A stretch of DNA of 64,000 nucleotides, taken from assembly GCA_964036045.1 (NCBI GenBank), contig OZ038390.1, positions 2,507,238 through 2,571,237 of the forward strand, written 5' to 3'. Positions 19,512 to 37,366 of this stretch are shown piece by piece (position 1 is the stretch's first letter; each line of letters begins with the position of its first letter). The position numbers were made by a program, and so were the translations under genes. The stretch comes from Eutreptiella sp. 'Long Island Sound 2002' (lineage: Eukaryota; Euglenozoa; Euglenophyceae; Eutreptiales; Eutreptiaceae). The notes under the pieces were generated by a model that did no database searches, was not told the DNA's origin, and was given only the letters and a program-made list of their open reading frames with translations.

Positions 19512-19547
19512 TGGGATGCAGCGTTCTAGGGCGTGGTGCGGAACCCC
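19512..19547 (+). repeat. Left terminal inverted repeat, copy 1
   Basis: Identical to the copy 2 left end; inverse of 26577-26612. Confidence 0.95.
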
Positions 19548-19737
19548 TAGTTAGAACGCAATTTCTGGAACACCCACCTACCCTCAATTTTGGGGCAAAC
19601 CACCTAAAAAAATGGATTCAGCACCCTCAAAAACCCCCCATCCCCTTTCTTTCCCCACATAACCCTCATTGTAGGGGTGGTTTTTGGGGGGGGGTCAAAG
19701 AGTTAGAGCACAGTTAGAACAGAGTTAGAACGCAGTT

Positions 19738-19825
19738 AGAGCACCTTGCTCTAACTAGTTATCGCGCTAGTTATCGCGCGATAACTCAGTTATCGCGCAG
19801 TTATCGCGTGTAGTTATCGCGCACC
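19738..19825. repeat. Array A of the transposon, copy 1
   Basis: Matches 29839-29925 with minor differences. Confidence 0.8.
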
Positions 19826-19891
19826 CCTCCTCCCTCCCTCCCTAGGACAAACAACACAAAACACTTGGCACAAAGCATGTGTGGTCGTTTT

Positions 19892-21550
19892 TCATACAAA
19901 GTCATCAATGTCTGAGGCCTTGGCTGCCTCCAGTCCCAAAAGCCCTTGCTCCAGGGCGTTCATGGACATGCAATGGTGCATGTGGCGGAGGGACACACTT
20001 GGCCTCACCAAGGACCAACCCTTAAAACAATTTTTGAGCCTCCTCTTGTAAGGCCCATGCCGATACTCCGTTGGGATGGAGGAAAACTGAAAAATGTTCC
20101 TCCATTTCTCGGCAAAAAAGGTGGAATGTGCCAAGCACCAATGGATCCACCTGGTGGGGGACCAACCTTAGTCTCCCCACGCTTTTGAAAATTTTGTGGT
20201 CAACGCACGGTGGCGTTCCACTTGGGTTAGAGTGTACAACTCCCTCACCCTCCAAAGCTCATACAAACCCTCAATGCATTTCACCATGACATGCACAACA
20301 ACCCATAACATAGGTCCCCCAGGGGTCCTCACTGTGGGGACATGCTCTTTGAGGCAATCCACAAATTGCCTTTGGAAGGGGGGGGAGGTTAGGAAAACTT
20401 TGGTGCTTGTTAGATCGAAATCTTTTTCTGTGGCCCTCGAGGCCGAAGGGAGGCGTTCCCTGAGAGGGATGCCTGAGGTCTCATCCTTGAGGGCTTGCTT
20501 GAAGGCCTGCAAAGCTGCAAGAGCTTGGGCCTTACCAGGGGTACCAGGGGGGAGGGCCTGAAGGGTGGTCTCAATGCGCTTTGCAATGCCGTTTAGGATG
20601 CGGCATGCTGCATGTTGGTAGTCCCCCGGCCGCCTATCAGGGGTCACACTTCTCAAGAATGCCCCCCATCTTGAGGTGGACTCCACCCCCCTTTGCTCAA
20701 CAATCCCATTGGGGTCTTTGCACAACCAACACTTAGACCCAGCCCCCCCCATTGCTTGCATCCCCTTCCCATCCTCTGTCAAAATGACAGTGCAAGTCAA
20801 AAATTGGTTTTGAAAGAGGACAACGTCCTCTTCCACATCCCTCACCTCTTGGTTGAGGTTGGCGGAGATGTCCAGGCTTCTCAAAAAAGCCTGTTCATCC
20901 CCGCCATCCATGCAAAACCATGAGGCCCATAGCTTCACCTTCGAAGCATATTTTGCCCCCCCCCATACATTAACCCATACATCCGCACGGGTAGAGGATG
21001 CCTTCCACAAGGAAGTCGCATCAACTGAAATAACAACAATGGCAACGCCACTAGGGGGGGGTTTCCCGATAACTCGGGCCATAGATATTGCATTTTGCAC
21101 AATTGATTGCAAAGGCACATGGGCAGCTGCCCTATTGCGGCCTGTGGTAGACTTTACAATGGTTGTTTGGGGAAAGTAGGGCATGATCCGTTGCCGAACG
21201 GCCCTTAGGTCCCGTTGTGTGCAACGGCGGGGCATTCGCAAAAGGGCCCGTTGGGAGAGATGCATGCTGCATGCCATGCGTAGCATGCTCAGGGCCTCAT
21301 GCTCCTGAGCTGTTAATGCAAGATGGCCGCCAAGTGGGCCAGACAGGGCAGTGCACGCCCCACCACTTCAACAAACTTCGCCTTTGGTGTTGGTGCCACA
21401 CACGACGTTTGGGTCACCCAATAGAACTCGCACCAGCCGCTGAACCGCCTTCAAACGCCGCCGCCGGGCCTTGGGGCACTGCAGATCGGTGTACCGCCGG
21501 AGGTTAGCTGTGTTGAGAGCCCGCAGGGCCTCATTGACAGCACTATCCAT
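19892..21550 (-). pseudogene. Transposase gene, copy 1, with premature TAA
   Basis: Nearly identical to 29994-31652. A C-to-A change converts a serine codon to TAA at 20168-20170 (after ...TKFSKAWGD), removing the last 92 codons and the candidate catalytic Glu. It shares the TGA / 72-nt putative intron (21305-21376) with copy 2. Confidence 0.85.
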
Positions 21551-21615
21551 GAAGAATAAGAGGACCTGGACACGAAATGAGGGAGGGTTTTGAAGCAAGG
21601 GCCCAAAAAACACAC

Positions 21616-21793
21616 GCGATAACCCACGCGATAACCCCCGCGATAACTAGGTTATCGCGCGATAACCCCCGCGATAACCCCCCGCGATAACTAGTTAGAG
21701 CGCGATAACCCCCCGCGATAACTAGTTAGAGCACCCAGTTAGAGCGCGATAACCCCCGCGATAACTAGTTAGAGCAGGGGTTAGTGCGCACTA
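21616..21793. repeat. Array B of the transposon, copy 1
   Basis: Matches 31716-31895 almost base for base. Confidence 0.85.
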
Positions 21794-21961
21794 ACTGGTG
21801 GGGTTAGAGCAAGCGTTGGGCACCCTAAAACCTTCACAAACGTTGATTTTGCACCCAGGAAACCTTGGAGATGTCAACAATGTGCAGGCACGGGGTACAT
21901 GGCGCCACAATCACAAATTCAAATCAGTCAAATGGACATGTTCCGGGCTAGTTGCCCCTCC

Positions 21962-22684
21962 TCAGAGTACACAATGACAAACCATGGTGGGCATCCCACC
22001 AAAGCAGAAAAAATAGAAATAGTGAACAATAATCGAATCACAAATTACACTAGCTGGAGGGGTTAGAGGGAGCATTGGGCACCCTAAAACCCATGGACAG
22101 CAGCTGCTTCGCCACACAGGCGTGCAGTGCAGAACCCCCCCCGCACTATAAAAAATCACGCTCCATCGCTCGCCCTCCCATGGCAATGGAGCGTGTACTG
22201 CCCTGGTGTTGAACAACACCGGGGCTTGGGGGGTGGCGGTGCATGCCCAACCCTCCACCGCCCTACCCTTGCACACACGGGTGTGCCGCTTTTTTTCCCT
22301 CATGGAGGGATTCAGCAGGCCACCACTCTCCACCCAAAACTCACCCCCCGTGAAAGACCCCACACACACAATAAGCGCCATGGGCGCCCCATCCCGCAAA
22401 TGGGAGTGGAGGCCCATGGTGTCTGTCCCTTGGGGGCGAACAATTTGGATGCTACACCATGTGAACCATGGTGGAGCATTGGAGGTGCAATACCCATTGA
22501 GGTCTGCAACCAAGGGGGTGAGGGCAGGCCTGAGGGTAGCAGCGGCCATGTGGGTCGCCCTAAAATTAGAGGGGTTGGGGTTTCCACTTCCCACGAGGCC
22601 GAAGTGGCACATGTCCACTTGGGCCCCATATCGCTCCTTCCCACGAAAAATGCCCTTGGGCAACCCCTTGAGCAAATCCACTAG
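21962..22684 (-). CDS. TET/JBP-like dioxygenase domain, copy 1
   Basis: The domain is almost identical to 32157-32759 (GLHSHLRDG, SFTGGEFWVE, GERWSVIFYS) and stays open. A small difference in the G run after FYSAGG gives a longer, unrelated tail. It also follows the coiled-coil ORF after UGA-CUAG. Confidence 0.55.
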   Translation of the reverse strand, partial: LVDLLKGLPKGIFRGKERYGAQVDMCHFGLVGSGNPNPSNFRATHMAAATLRPALTPLVADLNGYCTSNAPPWFTWCSIQIVRPQGTDTMGLHSHLRDGAPMALIVCVGSFTGGEFWVESGGLLNPSMREKKRHTRVCKGRAVEGWACTATPQAPVLFNTRAVHAPLPWEGERWSVIFYSAGGVLHCTPVWRSSCCPWVLGCPMLPLTPPASVICDSIIVHYFYFFCFGGMPTMVCHCVL

Positions 22685-22687
22685 TCA

Positions 22688-23895
22688 TTGGCTCCCACTC
22701 CTACTCCTGCTACCCTGACTCTGCAACCCTTGCGGCGCCAGCCCCTGCTGGGCCTGCTGCGCCCCGAAGGAGGCACAGAGGGTGGAGGTGAGGCTGCGCA
22801 CCTGCGCCTCAGCCACCCCCAAGCGCTGCCCAAGGTCATCCCCCCTCCTCCGCTGCCCCTCCACCTCCACCCTAAGCTGGGCCACCTCCACCTCCGCCTT
22901 CCGCCTCCCCTCCTGGGCCTCCCTCAGGGCCTCCCTCATCGCCTCCACCTCCTCCCCCCTCTTGGCGGCCAGGTTGAGGGCCTGGTCCAGGGCACGCTGG
23001 GTGTTGCCCTGGGCCTTTTCGGCCTTCGCCAAGGCCGACTTGTGGTCGGCCGACCGACCCTTGGCCAGTGCGGCCTCGACCCCCGTGGCGGCCGCCTGCT
23101 CCACCAAAACCTGGCAAGTGTCCGTCACGTGGGTGGCCACACTGGTCCCCAAGGCCTCCACGTCCAGGGCCTCATGGGGGGGCTGGGCTGCCGCCACCTT
23201 TGCCACCTTCGATGGCTTGGGGGAGGGCTTGGGGGCGGGGGTTTGGCCCTTACCCCTAAGGGGGGGGGGGGGCATCCGGCTCAACCACCACCACGTCTGG
23301 TCCCCGCTTCGTCTGGCCTTTTCCCGGCCTTCCCCCCTTGGGTGCATACTGCCGAACCCAATCGGCAGTGGCGTCCACCACAGAAGGGGGGGGGTCATAC
23401 CCACCAACCTGGTGGATGCCCCCCCCCCCTGTGCAGCTTCTGCCACACTTCCCTCCCCGTATACTCCCCCTCCCACAAAAAACACACCCTCAAAAGGAAA
23501 TAAGATTTCCTTTGGGGGGGGTCGCTCATCCCAAACAAACACAAAAAAGCCGCAACCGTTTCCCCCTCTGCGGCATTCGGCCACTTGGCCGTTTCCCCCC
23601 CAACCCACACATAGGAGGGGAGGGTGAGGTTGGTCTTCCTCTCCACCCCCCCCTCCTTCTCGGTGATGGTGACCTGCCGGTACCATCCCGTCCCCCCCAT
23701 CCTGCAGGCCTCATCCCCAGGCTCCCCCCACCGCCACGACGCCCCCTCCGGCAGCCTCTTCTCCCCCTCCAGCTCCAACCGGGCCGCCACCGGCTTGGCG
23801 GGCCGTGCCCCTGCTGCTTCTGCTGCTCCGCCTGCTGCCTCGGCTGCCTGGGCGTCGTCCTTGACGAAGATACGGGGCAGCTGCAAGATGGTAGC
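22688..23895 (-). pseudogene. Coiled-coil protein gene, copy 1, frameshifted
   Basis: Same protein as 32763-33968. It carries one extra base in a G run (13 against 12, about 23270-23282) and one in a C-rich run (about 23418-23430), so the N-terminal part, the linker and the coiled coil lie in three different frames. Confidence 0.8.
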
Positions 23896-24093
23896 CTGAA
23901 AAAAACAAAAGAAACAAAAAAAAAACACGCGATAACCCGCGCGATAACCCCCGCGATAAATAGGTTATCGCGCGATAACCCCCGCGATAACCCCCCGCGA
24001 TAACCCCGCGATAACTAGTTAGAACGCGATAACCTAGCGCGATAACTAGTTAGAGCAGGGGTTAGAGCAGGGTGTTGTGGGAAGTTTTCACAC
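23896..24093 (-). other. Predicted 198-nt intron with array C (copy 1)
   Basis: Same donor (CAG|GTGTGAAAAC) and pyrimidine-rich acceptor as copy 2, 41 nt shorter because the array has fewer units. Confidence 0.6.
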
Positions 24094-26225
24094 CTGGTGA
24101 CATGGACACATGCCTTGGCCCTCCTTCTTGGCGTCGTCCAGCACCAGGCCCAGCCTCCGCAGCCACACGAAGTCCGTGACGGCCGCATACTCCCCCACCT
24201 GCCGCCACTCCACCACCTGGGCCACCCCCTCCACCTCAGGGGCCACCCTTGCCACTCCCCCATACAACCCCCTCCTCACCACCAAAATGGTGCCCGCCGG
24301 CACCTTCATCCCAACATGCCCTTGCAAGGTGGGCCAGGGCAGTGCCTCCCCATGGCACACCTTGGCCAAGGGGCACTGATCGGGGTGGCCTGCGACCGCC
24401 CCCGCCTCCTCATTAGTGAGGGGGGCAATCACCTCCCTCCCAATCCCCCACCCCGACAACAAAAAATGCCCGGTGGTTGTTCCCACCGGGAGCAAGCACT
24501 GAGCAGATTGCTCAATGCTGACCCCATTGGGGTCCACCACCACCTCCTCCTCCTCCCCCCCCTCCACCTCCTCCCCCTCCTGGCATGGCACACAAAGGCC
24601 ATCTTTGTGGGCGGTGCACAAAATCAGCCGATTGCATCCGTAGCAATTGGCTACCACCTTCCCCCTACACCTAACCGCCCCATCACACTGGACTGTCCTG
24701 GCCATCCGGCCACCAGGTGCCCCCAGCTGTGGCCTTTTAATGGACTGCGTCACGTGCAGGTTGGGGAATCGAAGATTCCCCCCCTTGGGTAAGCTCAATG
24801 GCAAAAAATGCCATGAGGCGGGGGTCCCTTACCCCCATGGGGGAGGCCTTGGGAATCCCCGACCCCCTGTGGACATCAAGGGCATTAAAAAAAAAGGCAG
24901 TGCCCCTCTTGAATGGCACAGCCCTCTCCACCAAAGGGTCAGGGAACCCCGAACTGCTGGAGGGCACAAAAAGAAAATGTGACCCATCCTCCTCCTCATG
25001 ATTATGGGTTAGCATAATAAGGCAATTGACAATCAATGTGCCTTCAGGAATGGTGTAGGGGGGGGCGTCGCGATGGAGGTGCTGGGGGGTGTGGTCATAG
25101 CTCGAAATTTCGGCCATGTCAAGGATGGTGCAGCTCCATCCGACCCCCCCCACCACAGTCTTCTTTGCGGTCTCAAGCACACGATCTGCCACCCTTTTGA
25201 GGACTGCCAGATCATGGAGCTTGTGGGGGTTGTGCTTGTGGTGGTTGGCACCCCCATAGTTGCCATACAATGTGCGGCGGGTCCCAGAATCTTGGGGCCT
25301 GCCGACAATGGGGGGGTTCTCATTGAAAATGGGTGCCTTCTCTGAGAGAGGCACCCTATCCAAATCATCCAAAAGACTTTGCAGCTGAATGTCACTCAAA
25401 AAATCGTGCTCCAGGAGGTGGTTGACCACCAGCTTTCCCCCCACCGTGAGCACAAGGTCATTGGGGTCCCTATTAAAGGCCCCCAAGGGCTCGGCGGCAA
25501 CCACCTCCTCCGCCTCCCCAATAAGGGGGGGTGTTGCCCCAAATGGAAAAAGAATCACCCCCTGCCCCGAAATAATGTTGGGAGTGGTGACCCCATACCA
25601 CTCATGCTCCCATTGGGTGACACTCCCTTGTGGGGCAAAGGGAGTGCATGGGGAGCTTGTTTTCGGGGTCGTCAGTGCAGACCCGGCGGGTGTTGTGGGT
25701 GAGGGGTTGGGGGAACCAACCATCCGACTTACCCTTCCCCTTACCCGGTCGGATCCTTACCTTCTGGACACTAATCATGAGGGGGTTGTGGGGCTTCTCC
25801 TTCCTCCCCCCAGCCCCCACCCCCCCCGCATCCTCCTCCTCCTCCTCCACTTCCTCCTCCTCCTCCTCCTGACCCACATAGAGGGTCCTCTTCGTTCCCG
25901 CACCCTTCTCGGCATGAGCGGTGACGGACTCCACAACCGCGTCCACATCCTCGGTATGAAGCTGGATCAAAAATCCAGCAACCCCTGGATTTACCTCTAG
26001 CAACTCGAAGATGTAGTTGCTGAGAACCAGGGGGTCTCGCTTGTCCGCCATGAAGGGGGACTTATGGACAAGGAGTCCAAAGTCCACACCATGTTCAAAG
26101 CGGGTCGCCACAGGGCGCCTCACATTGGCATCACCCATCGTAAACCCCTCAGGACCGCCAAGGCGACGGACCCCAAGGAGCTTTTGATGGTGCTCGCACC
26201 AAGCGTGGGCAGCAGCAAGGGCCAT
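24094..26225 (-). pseudogene. Large 2OG dioxygenase gene, copy 1, broken
   Basis: Collinear with 34208-36328. A 10-bp insertion relative to copy 2 (about 25612-25621, ATTGGGTGAC) and an extra C in a C run (about 24778-24784) split it into three frames. The HRD and distal His motifs survive in the middle piece. Confidence 0.85.
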
Positions 26226-26281
26226 TATCAAAGAATACGAAGGCTTTGAGAGCTACAGCGAAAAGGGGAAACATAAAATGA

Positions 26282-26432
26282 AGCGCGATAACCCACGCGA
26301 TAACCCACGCGATAACTAGGTTATCGCGCGATAACCCCCGCGATAACCCCCGCGATAACTAGGTTATAGCGCGATAACCCACGCGATAACTAGTGCTCTA
26401 ACCCCGTTCTAACCCCGCGATAACTAGTTAGA
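26282..26432. repeat. Array D of the transposon, copy 1
   Basis: Matches 36388-36535; one TTATAGCG in place of TTATCGCG. Confidence 0.85.
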
Positions 26433-26576
26433 GCACACAAAGATCAAATCGCAAAAAGTGCAAAACGGGCAATATCGAGCAAACGAAACATGGAAGGCAC
26501 ATTGTTGCATCATAGTGCACCCATGTAACATGTGAAATTCCGGGTTCCAACCATATTAACAACACCCAAAATTGGG

Positions 26577-26612
26577 GGGGTTCCGCACCACGCCCTAGAA
26601 CGCTGCATCCCA
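26577..26612 (-). repeat. Right terminal inverted repeat, copy 1
   Basis: Inverse of 19512-19547. Confidence 0.95.
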
Positions 26613-26798: not shown

Positions 26799-27150
26799 TC
26801 AGGATGGCAGGAGGGCCGGTGCGAAGTGCGCAGCACTCGCCGGCCCGAGTGCCATCCTGAACTCCCTGCCCTCCCCAACCCATTTGGAAACAAAGGTCGT
26901 AGGTAAGAGGGGGCCCTTGCCCGCACCCAGCACTGTCGCGCGCAGCGGGGGCCACCACCATGACTTTGCATAACCTTTATACGCACACCCTCGTACAATG
27001 GACGCCAAATTGACCTGCATGTGCACATCAGTGAAAGCGTACGTCAAAGCCTTGGACGCCACTGTGGGGATCATGGATTTCAGGACTGACCTAGCATTGG
27101 GGGAGTCATGATCAACCCACTTGTCCCACAAGTCAAGGTCTGTGGGCAGG
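26799..27150 (-). pseudogene. Probable C-terminal continuation of the element B RT
   Basis: Open frame in a different phase, encoding LWDKWVDHDSPNARSVLKSM and YAFTDVHMQVNLASIVRG before ending at 26799, close to the inserted transposon copy 1. Its position and protein-like composition suggest the RT frame was shifted by one base, or that a frameshift is used. Confidence 0.4.
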
Positions 27151-28981
27151 ACGTGTCAGGGAGCTGGAAACATACATTCTTCATTAACAGAATAAGCTCA
27201 GGTTCTGTGACCACACGTGACTCACACCAGTCGTTCACGGCACCACACGGTTCCCATTTCATGGGGATGTTATATAACACGTCAATGAAAACTTGTGTAA
27301 AACGCACCACTTGCTGTCGGGGCAGACCAGGCGGAATATGTACATAACCGATGTAATTATTATCCATAAACCTGCTGAATAAAACTGTCGGCTCTGGTGG
27401 GATGTCTGGAGAACTGTCTGGGAGGCAACCACGGAAATATGTAGTTTCAGCTAGCATTACATCCCTGGGACATAAAGTTTCAAAATGGGCATTGAGCATG
27501 GGACGTGCTTTCTTTGGTGCTGCAGCGATGATGTGTCCGAAACGACCTGACGGATATGAATCCCATAGGCCCAGCAGCAGCAGCCTGAAATTGATTTCAC
27601 CCAGGCGAATCCACCCTAAGGTCTTAAACTGCTGATTGAACCAACCTCTCATACCGTATTCTTTGAAGAAGGCACGATTCCTGGGCAATACAACATCCTG
27701 TGGGAAGGTTAGCTGTGGCCCAGGGGTGTAACTACATGCAGGCATGCCCATGCCACACAGAGCTTGATGGACATTGCGCATATGGGCCTGCATACCTTCT
27801 TGGTTAAACAACACAGATTCACGGAAAATGGCCCACAATACCATAATCTGTGCAGACAAAAACCCCCCGATGGGCACACCTCTGGAGCCTTGCCTAAGAA
27901 GGATGGTATCCAGGCAGAAAAACGTGTTGTGCAGCAGGTCCCACACCACGTACTCGTACACTTCGTCAAAGTTCAGCACCACAAACATGTGTTCCGCACT
28001 TTTCCCTATCCTATCACGATGCCTATCGTTGCCACGCGCAATACTAAACCACAACGTGATTCTTTGTCCCAGGCTGTTCATGATTTTTTCTTTGGCGGCT
28101 GTGAGGGCCTGCAGCGCTTCTCGCTTGTCTATGTTCCAATAGCAATTGTCCATATCCCTTTCTCGCACAAAAGTACAGTTTCGCCCGGCATCCAGTCCCA
28201 CCAGACCCATGAACATATCCCTCACGCCCAACAGGGAGGGCAGTGCCATGAACGGTACTGCCTTGATGCATTCTTTTACCATCAGGGTCAGGCATCTACC
28301 TACTGTACGCGCCAGCGGCTTGAGCGGATGTGGTGCAAAGGTGATTATATTTCTCCAGATATAGTAATTCACCACCTTGTCCAGTTTCCACTTCGGAAGT
28401 GCAAATATAGACGGTACAGCATACCTTTTGTGCGGTGCTGTGCTGATATCGTGCATTTTGAAAGGCATGATGTCCCACAGATCAACCGGCACATAGTGAC
28501 GTGCAATAAATTGCTGTCTGTACAAAGGGTGCTGTAATTTTTCTGAGAGCAGGCCCAAGTGGCTACCGAGCTCCAGAATTTTGTGGCGGTGCGCTGATCT
28601 CAAGAGCATAGTGAGTCCCATGGCATTGCACTGCCATCTGGACGGTGCTACACCCACGATGTCAAACTCAGGCGCAAGCAGGATACCCTGCACTGTGTGA
28701 CTTTCGAGCAGAGAAATACAGAAACCTCCCAGCCTATGCAGTTTTTTGTCCCACTGCGAAACGACCAAAGACCATGCTTTCGGGGTTTCATTCACCCTGG
28801 TTATCACTTGCTTGTTCGTGTGTGGTGCGCGCGCTGCATGTTCCTGTATGAATCTGTTGGACTGAGATGCAGTAAATGAGGAGAGTTCACTGAATGCTTG
28901 AGGCAGGGTGGTGACCTCGTCAGGCAAGTCAGGGCACACTGTTTTTGCTATGGGTTCCACAGATTTATCAAATGTCTGCAA
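27080..28981 (-). CDS. Unusual reverse-transcriptase protein of element B
   Basis: An open frame of 633 codons, which can be read further upstream without a stop to at least 29170 (LKRKRDTRITKFLLLRQLHK). No ATG starts it, so the true start, possibly after a splice, is unknown. RT-like motifs: A with RERDMDNCYWNID (D276), B with RQGSRGVPIGGFLSAQ (363-378), and C with FSRFMDNNYIGY (D540-N541). Two features are odd. Motif C reads MDNN in place of the usual xxDD. About 160 residues lie between motifs B and C, far more than in standard RTs. A one-base shift near 27130-27160 leads into another open frame (to 26799, DLWDKWVDHDSPNARSVLKS) that probably belongs to the same protein. I cannot place it in a known clade; Penelope-like or a divergent protist RT are options. 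Confidence 0.6.
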   Translation of the reverse strand: MQTFDKSVEPIAKTVCPDLPDEVTTLPQAFSELSSFTASQSNRFIQEHAARAPHTNKQVITRVNETPKAWSLVVSQWDKKLHRLGGFCISLLESHTVQGILLAPEFDIVGVAPSRWQCNAMGLTMLLRSAHRHKILELGSHLGLLSEKLQHPLYRQQFIARHYVPVDLWDIMPFKMHDISTAPHKRYAVPSIFALPKWKLDKVVNYYIWRNIITFAPHPLKPLARTVGRCLTLMVKECIKAVPFMALPSLLGVRDMFMGLVGLDAGRNCTFVRERDMDNCYWNIDKREALQALTAAKEKIMNSLGQRITLWFSIARGNDRHRDRIGKSAEHMFVVLNFDEVYEYVVWDLLHNTFFCLDTILLRQGSRGVPIGGFLSAQIMVLWAIFRESVLFNQEGMQAHMRNVHQALCGMGMPACSYTPGPQLTFPQDVVLPRNRAFFKEYGMRGWFNQQFKTLGWIRLGEINFRLLLLGLWDSYPSGRFGHIIAAAPKKARPMLNAHFETLCPRDVMLAETTYFRGCLPDSSPDIPPEPTVLFSRFMDNNYIGYVHIPPGLPRQQVVRFTQVFIDVLYNIPMKWEPCGAVNDWCESRVVTEPELILLMKNVCFQLPDTSCPQTLTCGTSGLIMTPPMLGQS

Positions 28982-29162
28982 GCTGTTGTGTAAGTCCTCA
29001 GCACTGGGGAGGGTCGCGTTGCGTGCATTTTGCGTGCATGCAGTAGCCTCAGGGAGAAGCTTCTTCCACTGCTCGGGGTGCCTCGTTTTATGCAGTTGGC
29101 GCAGAAGAAGTAAAAACTTTGTAATCCTTGTATCCCTTTTTCGTTTGAGTTCGTTTGAGTTG

Positions 29163-29346
29163 GTACAAAGACCGGTCTAGACCGGTCTTGTGATCTGCCA
29201 AACTGGTCTACATGCAAAACTCTAATCCTTCGTTGAATCATCAAAAAACACCAAAACCACAAGATCCGCCACATGCAAATACCCCTGACCCAACTTTTCA
29301 CACAAAAGTCACAATTTGCACAAAAATCCAGACCAGACAAGACCGT
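29163..29346. repeat. Right subterminal motif cluster of element B
   Basis: Contains AGACCGGTCTAGACCGGTCT (29170-29189) and CCAGACCAGACAAGACCG before the 13-bp inverted end. It mirrors the GGTCT-rich left end. Confidence 0.55.
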
Positions 29347-29370: not shown

Positions 29371-29612
29371 TTAAGTAGGTCGTGTGGGATGCAGCGCCTC
29401 CAGATGGAGCCCGCCACCGACACCCTGCCTGCTGTGCCCAGCCAGCCCGGGCCATTTCCTTAGATACACGCGGCGGGTGAGCAAACTTGGGCCCCTTTTT
29501 CGGGGGGCAAAGTCTATCATACAACTGGGACTCCGCCTCGCCCAGCCTACTCGGCAATGATTTTTAGGGCTTTCAGCAGCACCCCCCTCCCCTGACGACC
29601 CGCATGCATGTA
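29371..29612 (-). pseudogene. Short host-retroelement segment between two insertions
   Basis: This 242-bp segment lies between the right end of element B and the left end of copy 2. On the minus strand it encodes residues such as LGEAESQLYDRLCPPKKGPK and then ASHTTYLI, which continues in frame into the RT segment at 19025. One frameshift (near 29575) separates it from the upstream piece. The 12-mer TGGGATGCAGCG at 29386-29397 happens to equal the start of the transposon TIR. Confidence 0.6.
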
Positions 29613-29648
29613 TGGGATGCAGCGTTCTAGGGCGTGGTGCGGAACCCC
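29613..29648 (+). repeat. Left terminal inverted repeat, copy 2
   Basis: 36 bp, starts TGGGATGCAGCG and ends GCGGAACCCC; perfect inverse of 36680-36715. Confidence 0.95.
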
Positions 29649-29838
29649 TAGTTAGAACGCAATTTCTGGAACACCCACCTACCCTCAATTTTGGGGCAAA
29701 CCACCTAAAAAAATGGATTCAGCACCCTCAAAAACCCCCCATCCCCTTTCTTTCCCCACATAACCCTCATTGTAGGGGTGGTTTTTGGGGGGGGGGTCAA
29801 AGAGTTAGAGCACAGTTAGAACAGAGTTAGAACGCAGT

Positions 29839-29925
29839 TAGAGCACCTTGCTCTAACTAGTTATCGCGCTAGTTATCGCGCGATAACTCAGTTATCGCGC
29901 AGTTATCGCGGGTAGTTATCGCGCA
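29839..29925. repeat. Array A of the transposon, copy 2 (3' end)
   Basis: GATAACTNAGTTATCGCG-type palindromes and AGTTAGAGC units between the left inverted end and the transposase stop. Copy 1 counterpart 19738-19825. Units contain TAA and TAG on both strands, so they stop translation in most frames. Confidence 0.8.
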
Positions 29926-29993
29926 CCCCTCCTCCATCCCTCACTAGGACAAACAACAGAAAACACTTGGCACAAAGCATGTATGGTCTTTTT

Positions 29994-31652
29994 TCATACA
30001 AAGTCATCAATGTCTGAGGCCTTGGCTGCCTCCAGTCCCAAAAGCCCTTGCTCCAGGGCGTTCATGGACATGCAATGGTGCATGTGGCGGAGGGACATAC
30101 TTGGCCTCACCAAGGACCAACCCTTAAAACAATTTTTGAGCCTCCTCTTGTAAGGCCCATGCCGATACTCCGTTGGGATGGAGGAAAACTGAAAAATGTT
30201 CCTCCATTTCTCGGCAAAAAAGGTGGAATGTGCCAAGCACCAATGGATCCACCTGGTGGGGGACCAACCTGAGTCTCCCCACGCTTTTGAAAATTTTGTG
30301 GTCAACGCACGGTGGCGTTCCACTTGGGTTAGAGTGTACAACTCCCTCACCCTCCAAAGCTCATACAAACCCTCAATGCATTTCACCATGACATGCACAA
30401 CAACCCATAACATAGGTCCCCCAGGGGTCCTCACTGTGGGGACATGCTCTTTGAGGCAATCCACAAATTGCCTTTGGAAGGGGGGGGAGGTTAGGAAAAC
30501 TTTGGTGCTGGTTAGATCGAAATCCTTTTCTGTGGCCCTCGAGGCCGAAGGGAGGCGTTCCCTAAGAGGGATGCCTGAGGTCTCATCCTTGAGGGCTTGC
30601 TTGAAGGCCTGCAAAGCTGCAAGAGCTTGGGCCTTACCAGGGGTACCAGGGGGGAGGGCCTGAAGGGTGGTCTCAATGCGCTTTGCAATGCCGTTTAGGA
30701 TGCGGCATGCTGCATGTTGGTAGTCCCCCGGCCGCCTATCAGGGGTCACACTTCTCAAGAATGCCCCCCATCTTGAGGTGGACTCCACCCCCCTTTGCTC
30801 AACAATCCCATTGGGGTCTTTGCACAACCAACACTTAGACCCAGCCCCCCCCATTGCTTGCATCCCCTTCCCATCCTCTGTCAAAATGACAGTGCAAGTC
30901 AAAAATTGGTTTTGAAAGAGGACAACGTCCTCTTCCACATCCCTCACCTCTTGGTTGAGGTTGGCGGAGATGTCCAGGCTTCTCAAAAAAGCCTGTTCAT
31001 CCCCGCCATCCATGCAAAACCATGAGGCCCATAGCTTCACCTTCGAAGCATATTTTGCCCCCCCCCATACATTAACCCATACATCCGCACGGGTAGAGGA
31101 TGCCTTCCACAAGGAAGTCGCATCAACTGAAATAACAACAATGGCAACGCCACTAGGGGGGGGTTTCCCGATAACTCGGGCCATAGATATTGCATTTTGC
31201 ACAATTGATTGCAAAGGCACATGGGCAGCTGCCCTATTGCGGCCTGTGGTAGACTTTACAATGGTTGTTTGGGGAAAGTAGGGCAAGATCCGTTGCCGAA
31301 CGGCCCTTAGGTCCCGTTGTGTGCAACGGCGGGGCATTCGCAAAAGGGCCCGTTGGGAGAGATGCATGCTGCATGCCATGCGTAGCATTCTCAGGGCCTC
31401 ATGCTCCTGAGCTGTTAATGCAAGATGGCCGCCAAGTGGGCCAGACAGGGCAGTGCACGCCCCACCACTTCAACAAACTTCGCCTTTGGTGTTGGTGCCA
31501 CACACGACGTTTGGGTCACCCAATAGAACTCGCACCAGCCGCTGAACCGCCTTCAAACGCCGCCGCCGGGCCTTGGGGCACTGCAGATCGGTGTACCGCC
31601 GGAGGTTAGCTGTGTTGAGAGCCCGCAGGGCCTCATTGACAGCACTATCCAT
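29994..31652 (-). CDS. DDE-like transposase (copy 2)
   Basis: ATG at 31652 (MDSAVNEALRALNT) to TGA at 29994. Taking the second, longer part (464 codons from 31388), candidate catalytic acids are D89 (VVISVDATSLWK), D172 (VILTEDGKGMQAM) and E407 (FSSIPTEYRHGPYK). A CWLC pair (C186/C189) follows the second Asp, as in several CACTA/KDZ-type transposases. Within the coding frame a TGA at 31470-31472 interrupts ...TKGEVC / SGGACTAL. A 72-nt phase-0 intron (GTTTGTTGAAG at 31478 to TTAACAGCTCAG at 31407) would remove it. The gene lies nearest the left inverted end. A preceding 3' splice site (GTGTCCAG at 31668) would link it to the upstream transcript. Family assignment is tentative. Confidence 0.6.
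31407..31478 (-). other. Possible 72-nt intron in the transposase gene (copy 2)
   Basis: Begins GTTTGTTGAAGTGG, ends CATTAACAGCTCAG, with TTAAC as a plausible branch site. Length is a multiple of three and both borders are phase 0. It removes the in-frame TGA. The same sequence is present in copy 1 at 21305-21376. Confidence 0.4.
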
Positions 31653-31715
31653 GAAGAATAAGAGGACCTGGACACGAAATGAGGGAGGGTTTTGAAGCAA
31701 GGGCCCAAAAAACAC

Positions 31716-31895
31716 ACGCGATAACCCACGCGATAACCCCCGCGATAACTAGGTTATCGCGCGATAACCCCCGCGATAACCCCCCGCGATAACTAGTTAG
31801 AGCGCGATAACCCCCCGCGATAACTAGTTAGAGCACCCAGTTAGAGCGCGATAACCCCCGCGATAACTAGTTAGAGCAGGGGTTAGTGCGCACTA
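31716..31895. repeat. Array B of the transposon, copy 2
   Basis: Same motif family, between the TET/JBP-like ORF and the transposase. Copy 1 counterpart 21616-21793. Nearby, a further phrase (GGGTGCCCAANGCTT with TCTAACCCC) occurs twice, at about 31905-31935 and 32125-32165. Confidence 0.85.
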
Positions 31896-32156
31896 ACTGG
31901 TGGGGTTAGAGCAAGCGTTGGGCACCCTAAAACCTTCACAAACGTTGATTTTGCACCCAGGAAACCTTGGAGATGTCAACAATGTGCAGGCACGGGGTAC
32001 ATGGCGCCACAAACGCAAATTCAAATCAGTCAAATGGACATGTTCCGGGCTAGTTGCCCCTCCTCAGAGTCCACAGAGTACAGTAATAGAAAGAGTGAAC
32101 AATAATCGAATCACAAATTACACTAACTGGAGGGGTTAGAGGAAGCATTGGGCACC

Positions 32157-32759
32157 CTAAAACCCATGGACAGCAGCTGCTTCGCCACAAAGGCGTGCAG
32201 TGCAGAACCCCCCACCCGCACTATAAAAAATCACGCTCCATCGCTCGCCCTCCCATGGCAATGGAGCGTGTACTGCCCTGGTGTTGAACAACACCGGGGC
32301 TTGGGGGGTGGCGGTGCATGCCCAACCCTCCACCGCCCTACCCTTGCACACACGGGTGTGCCGCTTTTTTTCCCTCAAGGAGGGATTCAGCAGGCCACCA
32401 CTCTCCACCCAAAACTCACCCCCCGTGAAAGACCCCACACACACAATAAGCGCCATGGGTGCCCCATCCCGCAAATGGGAGTGGAGGCCCATGGTGTCCG
32501 TCCCTTGGGGGCGAACAATTTGGATGCTACACCATGTGAACCATGGTGGAGCATTGGAGGTGCAATACCCATTGAGGTCTGCTACCAAGGGGGTGAGGGC
32601 AGGCCTGAGGGTAGCAGCGGCCATGTGGGTCGCCCTAAAATTAGAGGGGTTGGGGTTTCCACTTCCCACGAGGCCAAAGTGGCACATGTCCACTTGGGCC
32701 CCATATCGCTCCTCCCCACGAAAAATGCCCTTGGGCAACCCCTTGAGCAAATCCACTAG
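32157..32759 (-). CDS. TET/JBP-like 2OG dioxygenase domain (copy 2), in frame after UGA
   Basis: Follows the coiled-coil ORF in the same frame, separated only by UGA in the context CAA-UGA-CUAG. In numbering from the GTG codon at 32756, the core reads GLHSHLRDG (H92, H94), then VGSFTGGEFWVESGG (GG at 112-113), then VLFNTRAVHAPLPWEGERWSVIFYS (H163, R172 in the full string). The GG-E-W strand, the distal H and the GER-[WY]-S end are the pattern of TET/JBP-type DNA-base dioxygenases, whose members oxidise 5-methylcytosine or thymine. The second iron ligand position reads His rather than the common Asp, so activity is uncertain. There is no ATG near the start, so expression probably needs readthrough or splicing from the upstream ORF. 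Confidence 0.6.
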   Translation of the reverse strand, partial: LVDLLKGLPKGIFRGEERYGAQVDMCHFGLVGSGNPNPSNFRATHMAAATLRPALTPLVADLNGYCTSNAPPWFTWCSIQIVRPQGTDTMGLHSHLRDGAPMALIVCVGSFTGGEFWVESGGLLNPSLREKKRHTRVCKGRAVEGWACTATPQAPVLFNTRAVHAPLPWEGERWSVIFYSAGGGFCTARLCGEAAAVHGF

Positions 32760-32762
32760 TCA
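32760..32762 (-). promoter_or_regulatory. UGA stop in the leaky UGA-CUAG context
   Basis: Minus-strand CAA TGA CTA GTG, identical in copy 1 (22685-22687). UGA followed by CUA(G) is the best-known high-readthrough context in eukaryotes. Here it separates two in-frame domains. The alternative, a 33-nt intron (GTAGC...CTAG) that is a multiple of three, would also remove the stop but would be extremely short. Confidence 0.5.
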
Positions 32763-33968
32763 TTGGCTCCCACTCCTACTCCCGCTACCCTGACTCTGCA
32801 ACCCTTGCGGCGCCAGCCCCTGCTGGGCCTGCTGCGCCCCGAAGGAGGCACAGAGGGTGGAGGTGAGGCTGCGCACCTGCGCCTCAGCCACCCCCAAGCG
32901 CTGCCCAAGGTCATCCCCCCTCCTCCGCTGCCCCTCCACCTCCACCCTAAGCTGGGCCACCTCCACCTCCGCCTTCCGCCTCCCCTCCTGGGCCTCCCTC
33001 AGGGCCTCCCTCATCGCCTCCACCTCCTCCCCCCTCTTGGCGGCCAGGTTGAGGGCCTGGTCCAGGGCACGCTGGGTGTTGCCCTGGGCCTTTTCGGCCT
33101 TCGCCAAGGCCGACTTGTGGTCGGCCGACCGACCCTTGGCCAGTGCGGCCTCGACCCCCGTGGCGGCCGCCTGCTCCACCAAAACCTGGCAAGCGTCCGT
33201 CACGTGGGTGGCCACACTGGTCCCCAAGGCCTCCACGTCCAGGGCCTCATGGGGGGGCTGGGCTGCCGCCACCTTTGCCACCTTCGATGGCTTGGGAAAG
33301 GGCTTGGGGGCGGGGGTTTGGCCCTTACCCCTAAGGGGGGGGGGGGCATCCGGCTCAACCACCACCACGTCTGGTCCCCGCTTCGTCTGGCCTTTTCCCG
33401 GCCTTCCCCCCTTGGGTGCATACTGCCGAACCCAATCGGCAGTGGCGTCCACCACAGAAGGGGGGGCGTCATACCCACCAACCTGGTGGATGTCCCCCCC
33501 CCTGTGCAGCTTCTGCCACACTTCCCTCCCCGTATACTCCCCCTCCCACAAAAAACACACCCTCAAAAGGAAATAAGATTTCCTTTGGGGGGGGTCGCTC
33601 ATCCCAAACAAACACAAAAAAGCCGCAACCGTTTCCCCCTCTGCGGCTTGCGGCCATTTGGCCGTTTCCCCCCCAACCCACACATAGGAGGGGAGGGTGA
33701 GGTTGGTCTTCCTCTCCACCCCCCCCTCCTTCTCTGTGATGGTGACCTGCCGGTACCATCCCGTCCCCCCCATCCTGCAGGCCTCATCCCAAGGCTCCCC
33801 AAACCGCCACGACGCCCCCTCCGGCAGCCTCTTCTCCCCCTCCAGCTCCAACCGGGCCGCCACCGGCTTGGCGGGCCGTGTCCCCGCTGCTTCTGCCGCT
33901 CCGCCTGCTGCGTCGGCTGCCTGGGCGTCGTCCTTGACGAAGATGCGGGGCAGCTGCAAGATGGTAGC
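32763..33968 (-). CDS. Coiled-coil protein of the transposon, second exon (copy 2)
   Basis: Begins at the predicted acceptor (ATILQLPRIFVKDD) and ends at UGA 32760-32762, about 402 codons. The N-terminal third (WYRQVTITEKEGG, LPSYVWVGGETAKW, KSYFLLRVCFLWEGE) looks like a compact beta-rich domain, with a possible but weak resemblance to BAH modules. A Pro/Lys-rich linker follows (PPPLRGKGQTPAPKP), then a long coiled coil (KRGEEVEAMREALREAQEGR) and a Gln/Ser/Gly-rich end. Its job may be oligomerisation or chromatin contact for the linked dioxygenase domains. No ATG begins the ORF, which supports the splice model. Confidence 0.6.
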
Positions 33969-34207
33969 CTGAAAAAAACAAAAGAAACAAAAAAAAACGC
34001 GATAACCCGCGCGATAACCCCCGCGATAACTAGGTTATCGCGCGATAACCCCCGCGATAACCCCCCGCGATAACCCCGCGATAACTAGTTAGAACGCGAT
34101 AACCTAGCGCGATAACTAGTTAGAGCACCTAGTTAGAACGCGATAACCTAGCGCGATAACTAGTTAGAGCAGGGGTTAGAGCAGGGTGTTGTGGGAAGTT
34201 TTCACAC
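33969..34207 (-). other. Predicted 239-nt intron containing repeat array C (copy 2)
   Basis: Donor CAG|GTGTGAAAAC at 34207 and acceptor TTTGTTTCTTTTGTTTTTTT-like pyrimidine tract followed by CAG at 33971-33969. Both borders are phase 0: ...CPCHQ joins ATILQLPRIF. In copy 1 the same borders give a 198-nt intron (23896-24093). The size difference lies entirely in the GATAAC array. Confidence 0.65.
33995..34175. repeat. Array C of the transposon, copy 2 (intronic)
   Basis: Same motif family inside the predicted intron 33969-34207. Compared with copy 1 (23926-24060), one compound unit is duplicated. Confidence 0.85.
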
Positions 34208-36328
34208 CTGGTGACATGGACACATGCCTTGGCCCTCCTTCTTGGCGTCGTCCAGCACCAGGCCCAGCCTCCGCAGCCACACGAAGTCCGTGACGGCCGC
34301 ATACTCCCCCACCTGCCGCCACTCCACCACCTGGGCCACCCCCTCCACCCCAGGGGCCACCCTTGCCACTCCCCCATACAACCCCCTCCTCACCACCAAA
34401 ATGGTGCCCGCCGGCACCTTCATCCCAACATGCCCTTGCAAGGTGGGCCAGGGCAGTGCCTCCCCATGGCACACCTTGGCCAAGGGGCACTGATCGGGGT
34501 GGCCTGCGACCGCCCCCGCCTCCTCATTAGTGAGGGGGGCAATCACCTCCCTCCCAATCCCCCACCCCGACAACAAAAAATGCCCGGTGGTTGTTCCCAC
34601 CGGGAGCAAGCACTGAGCAGATTGCTCAATGCTGACCCCATTGGGGTCCACCACCACCTCCTCCTCCTCCCCCCCCTCCACCTCCTCCCCCTCCTGGCAT
34701 GGCACACAAAGGCCATCTTTGTGGGCGGTGCACAAAATCAGCCGATTGCATCCGTAGCAATTGGCTACCACCTTCCCCCTACACCTAACCGCCCCATCAC
34801 ACTGGACTGTCCTGGCCACCCGGCCAGCAGGTGCCCCCAGCTGGGGCCTCTTAATGGACTGGGTCACGTGCAGGTTGGGGAATCGAAGATTCCCCCCTTG
34901 GGTAAGCTCAATGGCAAAAAATGCCATGAGGCGGGGGTGGGACACCCCCGTGGGGGAGGCCTTGGGAATCCCCGACCCCCGGTGTACATCAAGGGCATTA
35001 AAAAAAAAGGCAGTGCCCCTCTTGAATGGCACAGCCCTCTCCACCCAAGGGTCAGGGAACCCCGAACTGCTGGAGGGCACAAAAAGAAAATGTGACCCAT
35101 CCTCCTCCTCATGATTATGGGTTAGCATAATAAGGCAATTGACAATCAATGTGCCTTCAGGAATGGTGTAGGGGGGGGCGTCGCGATGGAGGTGCTGGGG
35201 GGTGTGGTCATAGCTCGAAATTTCGGCCATGTCAAGGATGGTGCAGCTCCATCCAACCCCCCCCACCACAGTCTTCTTCGCCGTCTCAAGCACACGATCT
35301 GCCACCCTTTTGAGGACTGGCAGATCATGGAGCTTGTGGGGGTTGTGCTTGTGGTGGTTGGCACCCCCATAGTTGCCATACAATGTACGGCGGGTCCCAG
35401 AATCTTGGGGCCTGCCGACAATGGGGGGGTTCTCATTGAAAATGGGTGCCTTCTCTGAGAGAGGCACCCTATCCAAATCATCCAAAAGACTTTGGAGCTG
35501 CACATCACTCAAAAAATCGTGCTCCAGGAGGTGGTTGACCACCAACTTCCCCCCCACGGTGAGCACAAGGTCATTGGGGTCCCTATTAAAGGCCCCCAAG
35601 GGCTCGGCGGCAACCACCTCCTCCGCCTCCCCAATAAGGGGGGGTGTTGCCCCAAATGGAAAAAGAATCACCCCCTGCCCCGAAACAATGTTGGGAGTGG
35701 TGACCCCATACCACTCACGCTCCCACTCCCTTGTGGGGCAAAGGGAGTGCATGGGGAGCTTGTTTTCGGGGTCGTCAGTGCAGACCCGGCGGGTGTTGTG
35801 GGTGAGGTGTTGGGGGAACCAACCATCCGACTGCCCCTTCCCCTTACCCGGTCGGATCCTTACCTTCTGGACACTAATCATGAGGGGGTTGTGGGGCTTC
35901 TCCTTCCTCCCCCCAGCCCCCACCCCCCCCGCATCCTCCTCCTCCTCCTCCACTTCCTCCTCCTCCTCCTCCTGACCCACATAGAGGGTCGTCTTCGTCC
36001 CCGCACCCTTCTCGGCATGGGCGGTGACGGACTCCACCACGGCGTCCACATCGTCCGGATGAAGCTGGATCAAAAATCCAGCAACCCCTGGATTTACCTC
36101 TAGCAACTCGAAGATGTAGTTGCTGAGAACCAGGGGGTCTCGCTTGTCCGCCATGAAGGGGGACTTATGGACAAGGAGTCCAAAGTCCACACCATGTTCA
36201 AAGCGGGTCGCCACAGGGCGCCTCACATTGGCATCACCCATCGTAAACCCCTCAGGACCGCCAAGGCGACGGACCCCAAGGAGCTTTTGATGGTGCTCGC
36301 ACCAAGCGTGGGCAGCAGCAAGGGACAT
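34208..36328 (-). CDS. 2OG-Fe(II) dioxygenase with acidic stretch and Cys cluster (copy 2, first coding exon)
   Basis: Open from ATG at 36328 (MSLAAAHAWCEHH) to a predicted 5' splice site CAG|GTGTGA after 34208. In residue numbering that starts two codons earlier: an acidic run (EEEEEEVEEEEE, about 122-133), then a double-stranded beta-helix dioxygenase core with the iron ligands H383-R384-D385 (QHLHRDAPPY) and distal H451 (NALDVHRGSG), plus R468 (HPRLMAFFAI) as a likely 2-oxoglutarate contact. A Cys/His cluster (C512 to C546: QCDGAVRC, NCYGCNRLILC, LCVPC) probably binds zinc. The expected chemistry is Fe(II)/2-oxoglutarate-dependent hydroxylation. Substrate is unknown; protein or nucleic acid are both possible. 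If the intron is real, the protein continues into the next exon. The family assignment rests on spacing of H-x-D, H and R, not on overall similarity. Confidence 0.65.
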
Positions 36329-36387
36329 TATCAAAGAATATGAAAGCTTTGAGAGCTAAAGCGAAAAGGGGAAACATAAAATGAAGC

Positions 36388-36535
36388 GCGATAACCCACG
36401 CGATAACCCACGCGATAACTAGGTTATCGCGCGATAACCCCCGCGATAACCCCCGCGATAACTAGGTTATCGCGCGATAACCCACGCGATAACTAGTGCT
36501 CTAACCCCGTTCTAACCCCGCGATAACTAGTTAGA
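36388..36535. repeat. Array D of the transposon, copy 2 (5' end of the gene set)
   Basis: Degenerate tandem GATAACCCNCGC / CTAGGTTATCGCGCGATAAC / GATAACTAGTTAGAGC motifs between the right inverted end and the first ORF. A TTTTCGCTTTAG acceptor-like site follows at 36356, so the array may lie in a 5' UTR intron. Copy 1 counterpart is 26282-26432. Confidence 0.8.
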
Positions 36536-36679
36536 GCACACAAAGATCAAATCGCAAAAAGTGCAAAACGGGCAATATCGAGCAAACGAAACATGGAAGG
36601 CACATTGTTGCATCATAGTGCACCCATGTAACATGTGAAATTCCGGGTTCCAACCATATTAACAACACCCAAAATTGGG

Positions 36680-36715
36680 GGGGTTCCGCACCACGCCCTA
36701 GAACGCTGCATCCCA
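36680..36715 (-). repeat. Right terminal inverted repeat, copy 2
   Basis: Inverse of 29613-29648. Any minus-strand promoter of the operon-like gene set would be expected just inside this end. Confidence 0.95.
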
Positions 36716-36717
36716 TA

Positions 36718-37366
36718 CTCCACAGCTGAGAACATGTCCTCTATGGCACCCTGGACCATGTGGCTCCACCCTTTCTTTATGCCTTTTAGTTGCGCGATTT
36801 CTGACGCCATTCGTCTGGCTTCTCTGTCCGTTCCCTGGACTTCTTCACTTGGCTGCGTGTGGCTGGGAGCATGTGCGCCGTCGCTTCGCACCGGCCTCCG
36901 CAGGCGTTCGTGTCCCAGAAGATCACGCAGCGCCCTCCTGACCCGCCGCGGCGATGTCTCGTCGCCGCCACGGCGCCCAGAGTTGCAGCGTCGTTCCCAG
37001 TCGTTGTGTGAGGCTGACTTCCCGCTTATCGTTGATTGTGGCCACCGGCAGTGGTCCTCCTTTGACAAAGTTCCAGCTGGCTGGCCGGTACACATAGATT
37101 TTGAGCATGCCCGGTGTTGCCCATTCACCCCACCGGAGGATACTGTTCGTCGGTGCCCCGAGCAGCCGGAGCTGAGCCGCCCCACACCTGCGCCACGCGT
37201 GCCAGCGCAAGGACTTGCAGCCTGATTCCGGCCTGCCAACCAGCTCTGCGAGCCCTTTGTGGAGCACGAATACGAATCGTCTGAGGAATCCGAGGGGTGG
37301 GCAGCGGGCAGTGCGAGTAGCACTTCAAACGCTACTTCGGGACCCCCCCCCCTAAGGGTTTGCTTC
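36718..37366 (-). pseudogene. Middle part of host retroelement H, cut by transposon copy 2
   Basis: Charged, helix-prone sequence ending SEIAQLKGIKKGWSHMVQ and then DMFSAVEY at the insertion site. The frame continues across the TA target site into 29610. No domain recognised. Confidence 0.5.

Follow-up and report, generated by a model that had tools for sequence, protein, structure and literature searches.

A CMCT-like DNA transposon of Eutreptiella with a putative spliced dioxygenase gene, a probably leaky stop codon and motif arrays in its non-coding DNA

Anatomy, copies and class of the element

The stretch analysed here, referred to below as the window, comprises 64,000 nucleotides (nt) of contig OZ038390.1 of the euglenophyte Eutreptiella sp. 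'Long Island Sound 2002', and harbours at positions 29613-36715 a DNA transposon which carries, beside its transposase gene, a putative 2-oxoglutarate/Fe(II) dioxygenase gene with a probably leaky stop codon, and whose non-coding DNA is filled with arrays of a short word. A preliminary description of this DNA had proposed a terminal inverted repeat (TIR) transposon with a DDE-type transposase, and this is borne out by 36-nt TIRs, a 2-bp target site duplication (TSD) and D-D-E motifs. Indeed, the ends are exact and agree with the coordinates first given: perfect inverted arms of 39 nt (29610-29648 and 36680-36718) consist of the 36-nt TIRs, the 2-bp TSD TA and one extra matching base. The left TIR (29613-29648, plus strand) begins with 5'-TGGGATGCAGCG and is preceded by TA at 29611-29612, the right TIR (36680-36715, minus strand) is followed by TA at 36716-36717, and the element termini read 5'-TGGG..CCCA-3'.

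Two genes are found, both on the minus strand. The transposase (29994-31652), 552 amino acids (aa) long in P0154 and here broken by a TGA, displays D (VDATSLW), D (DGKGM), C(2)C, H(4)H and E (IPTEYR). The dioxygenase gene is predicted to consist of exon 1 (34208-36328, minus strand; 707 aa), with a PhyH-like dioxygenase motif (HRD...H...R) followed by a Cys/His cluster, an intron (33969-34207, minus strand; GT...TTTTTTTCAG, phase 0 on both sides) and exon 2 (32760-33968, minus strand; 402 aa), with a coiled-coil region at its end and then TGA. This stop forms the UGA CUA G context (32756-32762, minus strand) between the coiled coil and a further domain, hereafter the post-stop domain (32123-32759, minus strand), which continues in frame past the TGA and measures 211 aa in most copies; in the present copy a 1-base shift lies near its end, and its own frame stops at 32157.

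The genome searched for further copies, as had been proposed, comprises 2.28 Gb in 2205 contigs. Used as a DNA query, the left third of the element was found over nearly its whole length and with 99-100% identity in at least 40 places, two of them within the window (a lower bound, the best 40 of 2412 candidates being scored), and a diverged post-stop domain, used as a protein query, gave at least 150 genomic matches (again a lower bound, from the best 150 of 2774 candidates). The element is young and abundant. Note that at G000:C15:55222201-55222673 and G000:C3:54923193-54923651 extra left ends of 460-470 bp adjoin full left thirds, as if end fragments had been duplicated in tandem. The TSD sample included 22 elements (20 fetched and the two of the window), and both ends were located by pattern in 16, while L009, L011, L014, L021, L022 and L025 were dropped because the script did not locate both of their ends. 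A 2-bp TSD with variable letters (TA, AA, TT, CA, TG, CC, TC, AT) flanks 13 of these 16 elements, the other three being L010, L013 and L028; L010 and L013 are full-length and inserted at the same place of apparently one repeat.

The second copy of the window (19512-26612, minus strand) is 97.4% identical, has the same orientation and a TSD TG, and contains the same transposase stop together with frame-breaking indels in the dioxygenase, coil and post-stop frames. The copy at 29613-36715 is defective, with a stop in its transposase frame (31470-31472) and a post-stop frame shifted by a net 1 bp close to the end of the domain. Among 16 elements compared, this TGA occurs in the two window copies only, the other 14 reading TTA, and P0154 has leucine there, which rules out that UGA is recoded genome-wide. 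As the lesion is common to the two window copies, whose flanks differ, at least one of them was probably mobilised with help from elsewhere.

With regard to class, passages of PMC12730594 (Kojima 2025) describe for the CMCT clade (CACTA/Mirage/Chapaev/Transib/Plavaka-like) D-D-E transposases with C(2)C and H(3-4)H between the second D and the E, TSDs of 2 to 5 bp, and termini that are mostly 5'-CA..TG-3', with PlavakaA (5'-TGT..ACA-3') as an exception. Our element displays the residue pattern, as CWLC and HWCLAH sit between DGKGM and IPTEYR, and the 2-bp TSD, but its 5'-TGGG..CCCA-3' termini deviate. The only diverged transposase relative found, P0193 (38-39% identity; 39% over 93%), keeps all of these residues, i.e., the D in DAT.LW, the D in GDGKGM, C(2)C, H(4)H and the E in IPTEYR. 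Among 11 aligned relatives, many of them partial or decayed, those with a letter at the position retained the first D in 5/8, the second D in 9/11, the cysteines in 10/10 and 10/11, the histidines in 6/8 and 5/8 and the E in 5/7. No Pfam transposase model matches P0154 or P0193 (E up to 1), and the 11 aligned relatives gave two unrelated weak Pfam matches only. Given these unusual termini and the lack of a matching Pfam transposase model, we classify the element from its sequence as CMCT-like rather than as a filed member of the clade. Pfam includes a model for the KDZ (Kyakuja-Dileera-Zisupton) elements, to which the preliminary description had drawn a link; this link did not hold, and KDZ membership is rejected on the lack of any KDZ match among the 11 relatives, the 2-bp TSD and the CMCT-type motif pattern.

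Motif arrays in the non-coding segments

The element contains 59 half-sites, namely 40 copies of the 9-bp word CGCGATAAC and 19 of GTTAGARC, often facing each other around TA. They are distributed over the left end (12), the intergenic segment (16), the intron (17) and the right end (14), giving 59 in 1.47 kb of non-coding DNA and none in 5.6 kb of exons; the CpG-rich arrays announced for every non-coding segment were therefore recovered in all four and in no exon. The left-end array (29804-29923) holds 6 CGCGATAAC with GTTAGARC, and another GTTAGARC lies at 29651; the intergenic array upstream of the transposase gene (31717-31912) holds 11 CGCGATAAC and 5 GTTAGARC, the intron array 12 and 5, and the right-end array (36387-36537) 11 and 3, respectively. 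Spacing between half-sites is mostly 12, 11, 13 or 7 nt, and CGCGATAAC has a single orientation in 31 of 40 cases, five of the nine exceptions being in the left end. The second copy carries 53 half-sites, including 36 CGCGATAAC, and the window outside both copies a single half-site and no CGCGATAAC. In L083, an incomplete copy with about 69% nucleotide identity, the left end shows GTTAGTGC four times where the copy at 29613-36715 has mainly GTTAGARC, and no exact CGCGATAAC occurs in its 4-kb stretch; the second word has therefore changed in several units together. A 44-nt direct repeat (31891-31934 and 32121-32164, 93% identical, 230 nt apart) is located between the intergenic array and the post-stop domain, its second unit overlapping the end of this domain.

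These arrays may be no more than subterminal repeats bound by the transposase, the internal ones regulating the promoters of the element and the dioxygenase acting genome-wide instead of being addressed by the arrays. Subterminal transposase-binding repeats are known from maize En/Spm and such repeats are present in many DNA transposons; here two of the four arrays are subterminal, and the transposase has the lowest ratio of nonsynonymous to synonymous shared polymorphism (pN/pS) of the four frames, 0.22 (counted in frame from one codon after the ATG) compared with 0.32-0.49 in the others. However, the other two arrays lie in the predicted intron and in the intergenic segment, each at least 2 kb from the nearer end, a layout that recognition of the ends would not need and that passages of PMC5735166 give for the targets of plant VANC proteins; we hold this explanation to be somewhat unlikely.

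CpG decay in resident copies

The ratio of observed to expected CpG is 0.41-0.52 in the exons compared with 0.73 in the window outside the copies. CpG changes were counted in 40 copies with clean context required (18 of which contribute only three short stretches), giving 3422 array and 7425 exon letters of CpG opportunity over all copies. In exons, CpG transitions exceed those at other C/G letters 4.3-fold by copy events, 3.3-fold by sites and 2.9-fold by singletons. Since coding CpGs mutate about three times faster, the resident copies are probably CpG-methylated, as judged from this mutation pattern.

In the arrays, the same ratios are 0.5, 1.6 and 2.8. Copy events alone, which tally inherited changes many times, indicate fewer changes at array CpGs (12/3422 versus 67/7425 in exons, p 0.0014; other runs p 0.020 and 0.041), but this difference is not significant by sites (p 0.22; other run p 0.51) and disappears in singletons (CpG/non-CpG ratio of 2.8 in arrays versus 2.9 in exons, p 0.72), so that protection of array CpGs from decay is not upheld. 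With array CpGs recently decaying at the pace of those in exons, the arrays of resident copies appear unprotected, a point against DNA modification directed at the element's own copies. Among older, shared changes, array CpGs account for fewer (2 versus 41 copy events), a pattern compatible with selection acting on the word in the mobile lineage. The self-directed DNA-modification system of the preliminary description therefore agrees with the arrays and finds no counterpart in the array CpGs of resident copies; we carry it forward as a proposal.

The predicted dioxygenase gene

Splicing of the two exons is suggested by GT-AG borders in phase 0 on either side, with a polypyrimidine tract, exon 1 ending in CAC CAG|GTGTGA and exon 2 starting after TTTTTTTCAG. 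In addition, no ATG occurs close to the beginning of the coil frame. Of 10 elements retaining the acceptor, 8 have CAG there and two (L013 and L023) have GAG. The dioxygenase gene is thus probably spliced into a product of 1109 aa (707 + 402), with the coiled-coil region and GSQ at its end, followed by TGA CTA G.

Within exon 1, the stretches HRD, VHRGSG and PRLMAFF mark the candidate dioxygenase (hereafter dioxygenase-1). A dioxygenase with HRD...H...R and a Cys cluster had been proposed, and the motif is indeed present at 34208-36328 together with a Cys/His cluster; the diverged relative P0199 (27% identity, E 5e-16) retains the HRD, distal His and Arg as well as the ligands of the Cys/His cluster. 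Among 18 aligned relatives, those with a letter at the position have the first His in 16/18, the Asp in 13/18, the distal His in 12/15 and the Arg in 9/13. The motif stretch weakly matches PhyH (E 0.012-0.019) and 2OG-FeII_Oxy_3 (E 0.061-0.068) in Pfam, each in 4 of 15 relatives and below the cut-offs. Note that P0199 begins as the transposase of this element and continues as the diverged dioxygenase-1 relative with its own HRD...H...R and Cys/His cluster; it perhaps stems from a related family of elements that inserted into this one or recombined with it. In P0125, P0148, P0149, P0152 and others, the start of dioxygenase-1 is fused in frame to the transposase, as internal deletions would give, and P0148 retains the whole transposase query.

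Several results weigh against this assignment, or against a need of the element for the enzyme. The Pfam scores remain below cut-offs, and one relative matches the unrelated Stevor family (E 0.0053) better than any matches PhyH, so that such E-values mean little alone. A search of the dioxygenase-1 profile against PDB sequences gave no match, and the AlphaFold2 model (18 rows) is unusable, with a mean predicted local distance difference test score (pLDDT) of 26. Moreover, 6 of the 16 elements lost 2.1-3.3 kb including dioxygenase sequence and yet keep their ends and transposase region, as does a seventh, L012, which lost 324 bp of exon 1 (this sample is biased to transposase-bearing copies). 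Because dioxygenase-deleted elements retain ends and transposase region, the dioxygenase is not needed in cis, and derivatives lacking much of the gene are what a trans-acting factor would allow.

The substrate may also be other than DNA: dioxygenase-1 could be a PhyH-like hydroxylase acting on protein, RNA or a small molecule, which helps the element or its host otherwise than by DNA demethylation. The profile matches of the motif stretch, to PhyH and 2OG-FeII_Oxy_3 and to no nucleic-acid oxidase family, speak for such a role, but these matches (E 0.012-0.068) are too weak to fix the substrate, and a Cys/His cluster in an array-bearing element would rather fit a chromatin target. We consider a non-DNA substrate rather unlikely.

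The post-stop domain and the conserved UGA

The frame at 32157-32759 contains GLHSHLRDG, FTGGEFW and GERWS as first described, and the proposed joining of a coiled-coil protein to a second candidate dioxygenase is supported, since the coil frame is in phase with this frame across one TGA. Its identity as a TET/JBP enzyme was not recovered. TET/JBP dioxygenases have an HxD iron motif, a distal His and an Arg. By our reading, the iron motif of the post-stop domain is HxH (first His in 30/36 and second His in 33/36 aligned relatives), with the distal His in 22/26 and the Arg in 16/25 of the relatives that have a letter there. Since HxH stands where TET/JBP has HxD, the domain may not be catalytic. 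Database searches gave no support for TET/JBP membership: none of 20 relatives matches any Pfam family at E up to 10 (HMMER filters discard most matches above about 0.1), two relatives gave no match in PHROGs, and the profile found none among PDB sequences. The AlphaFold2 model (36 rows, mean pLDDT 32) is unusable, and profile-profile comparison of the two dioxygenase-type domains revealed no similarity, both profiles being too shallow to count (effective number of sequences 1.8).

The domain could be a non-catalytic reader, with a dioxygenase fold and a changed iron site, which binds DNA or modified bases, readthrough setting the ratio of reader-bearing to plain enzyme. The HxH pattern, together with the frequent distal His and Arg, would suit such a reader, but the model, at this pLDDT, lends no support to the dioxygenase fold itself, and we regard the reader as quite unlikely.

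The stop codon is conserved. Among 40 loci examined, 32 copies cover the site and all read TGA CTA (30 TGACTAGTG, 1 TGACTAGCG and 1 TGACTAATG). In L083, the coil ends in ...SWSQ, followed by CAA TGA CTA and then by the domain in frame; the presence of the UGA in a copy of about 69% identity rules out a recent lesion. Between L083 and L015, the 176 post-stop codons show a synonymous divergence (dS) of 1.16 and a nonsynonymous divergence (dN) of 0.26, i.e., dN/dS of 0.22, and the 46 codons of the coil end a dN/dS of 0.33 (Nei-Gojobori with Jukes-Cantor, one diverged pair), which denotes purifying selection behind the stop. In addition, the post-stop frames found in the best 150 of 2774 candidates are open for 203-234 aa, each closed by some upstream stop, with an internal TAG in one. 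Because UGA CUA is kept in a diverged relative and the downstream frame has a dN/dS of 0.22 at a dS of 1.16, readthrough of UGA CUA G into the post-stop domain is probable, as predicted from the sequence. Passages of PMC4359377 give UGA CUA as the consensus of human stop contexts with high readthrough, a G in the next position being optimal.

Two observations stand against readthrough: polymorphism within the young copies reveals no selection on the post-stop domain (10 nonsynonymous and 5 synonymous shared changes, pN/pS 0.64, p 0.29), and two single diverged copies, P0008 and P0014, have Arg at the UGA. The Arg first looked ancestral and was re-read, without a tree, as probably derived. That the UGA simply ends the protein and the post-stop domain is an untranslated relic, as the UGA in all 32 young copies, a place that can change to Arg and the recent polymorphism without clear constraint might suggest, is the least likely explanation and indeed very unlikely given the constraint measured in the L083-L015 pair past the kept UGA CUA and the long frames, only one with an internal stop, among the candidates scored.

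Other features of the window

Three further frames were noted in the window. A Ty3-type retrotransposon polyprotein frame of 1688 aa (52018-57084, plus strand) matches the Pfam reverse transcriptase, RNase H, integrase and chromodomain families. A 677-aa frame (13222-15255, minus strand) combines a hydrophobic N-terminal part with a response-regulator receiver domain (E 1.3e-6, falling slightly short of the Pfam cut-off). The element is adjoined on its left by a 698-aa open frame (27080-29176, minus strand), of which the 633-aa part from 28981 gave no Pfam match above chance. An Rfam search of the window gave no match, and profile scans of viral contigs (three alignments) and genome contigs (one alignment) gave no relative.

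Discussion

Transposon-borne dioxygenases are thought to counter silencing, and the dense arrays described here could be the address by which such an enzyme finds its targets. Altogether, we tentatively propose, as a possible though not the expected outcome, that this CMCT-like TIR transposon carries its own anti-silencing gene, with a spliced dioxygenase, a leaky UGA, arrays that serve as address and a mark that is oxidised on its own copies. The first gene would be spliced to encode a 1109-aa protein composed of the PhyH-like Fe(II)/2-oxoglutarate dioxygenase, a zinc-type Cys/His cluster and a coiled coil, and some ribosomes would read through UGA CUA G, thereby adding the second domain of about 211 aa, while the second gene would supply the transposase. 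The address label would be formed by the CGCGATAAC arrays, with GTTAGARC often opposite, that occupy the two ends, the intron and the segment upstream of the transposase gene. A protein of the element would bind it, the likeliest candidate being the dioxygenase protein in the form of a coiled-coil multimer. The silencing mark, most simply 5-methylcytosine at CpG, would then be oxidised on the element's own copies, permitting transcription and movement.

A more specific form of this proposal is a self-addressed, base-modifying anti-silencing system, in which a 9-bp address lies on all non-coding DNA, the element's own oxygenase reads it and oxidises bases on the element's copies, and readthrough sets the share of enzyme carrying the second, oxygenase-like domain, i.e., a VANC-like targeting function joined to a catalytic subunit. 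We regard this fuller version as doubtful. The probably leaky stop could in this way set the composition of the enzyme. For a DNA transposon to keep a UGA CUA between two of its coding domains would also be, outside viruses, an unusual case of readthrough.

Transposon-borne TET/JBP genes in fungi and motif-array anti-silencing in plants are already known. As far as the open PMC literature goes at the level of titles and abstract starts, a CMCT-like element that combines such features with a probably leaky stop and a PhyH-like enzyme is apparently new; no element like this one is named in those titles and abstract starts, which is not proof of its being undescribed.

The nearest known elements are the TET+ DNA transposons of fungi, some of them CMCT with 2-bp TSDs, whose 2-oxoglutarate dioxygenase is believed, according to passages of PMC12730594, to act against DNA methylation. 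Our element resembles them as a DNA transposon of CMCT-like kind with a 2-bp TSD and a candidate dioxygenase. The fungal enzymes are described there as TET/JBP dioxygenases, some recognisable by structure only, whereas here the main enzyme appears PhyH-like, a second domain without a match to any of the profiles tried follows a probably leaky stop, and motif arrays are present. Note that the words algae, protist and dinoflagellate are absent from the main text of that article. KDZ elements can also carry TET/JBP genes, as stated in the same passages, but these give a TSD of 8 bp for Zisupton compared with 2 bp here, and no KDZ Pfam match was found in our element.

The AQP4 and LDHB readthrough genes, in the passages of PMC4359377, likewise have a C-terminal extension in frame behind UGA CUA G; in contrast, the extension here has about 211 aa, belongs to a transposon gene and would be reached by a readthrough that is predicted from the sequence.

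The arrays have a likeness in the VANDAL elements of Arabidopsis, which are Mutator-like. Their VANC proteins bind 9-bp motifs densely arrayed, mostly in one orientation, in VANDAL introns, intergenic segments and terminal non-coding regions; these motifs are rare elsewhere and diverge together between VANDAL subfamilies (passages of PMC5735166), and VANC causes loss of methylation over the element (passages of PMC5735166 and PMC10398659). In the same way, our element has dense, element-specific and mostly one-orientation 9-bp arrays which, within the window, are confined to its intron, intergenic and terminal non-coding DNA, and their units change together between relatives, so that the layout resembles in kind that of VANC targets. 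The passages on VANC do not describe an oxygenase, and the likeness between the two systems is one of layout.

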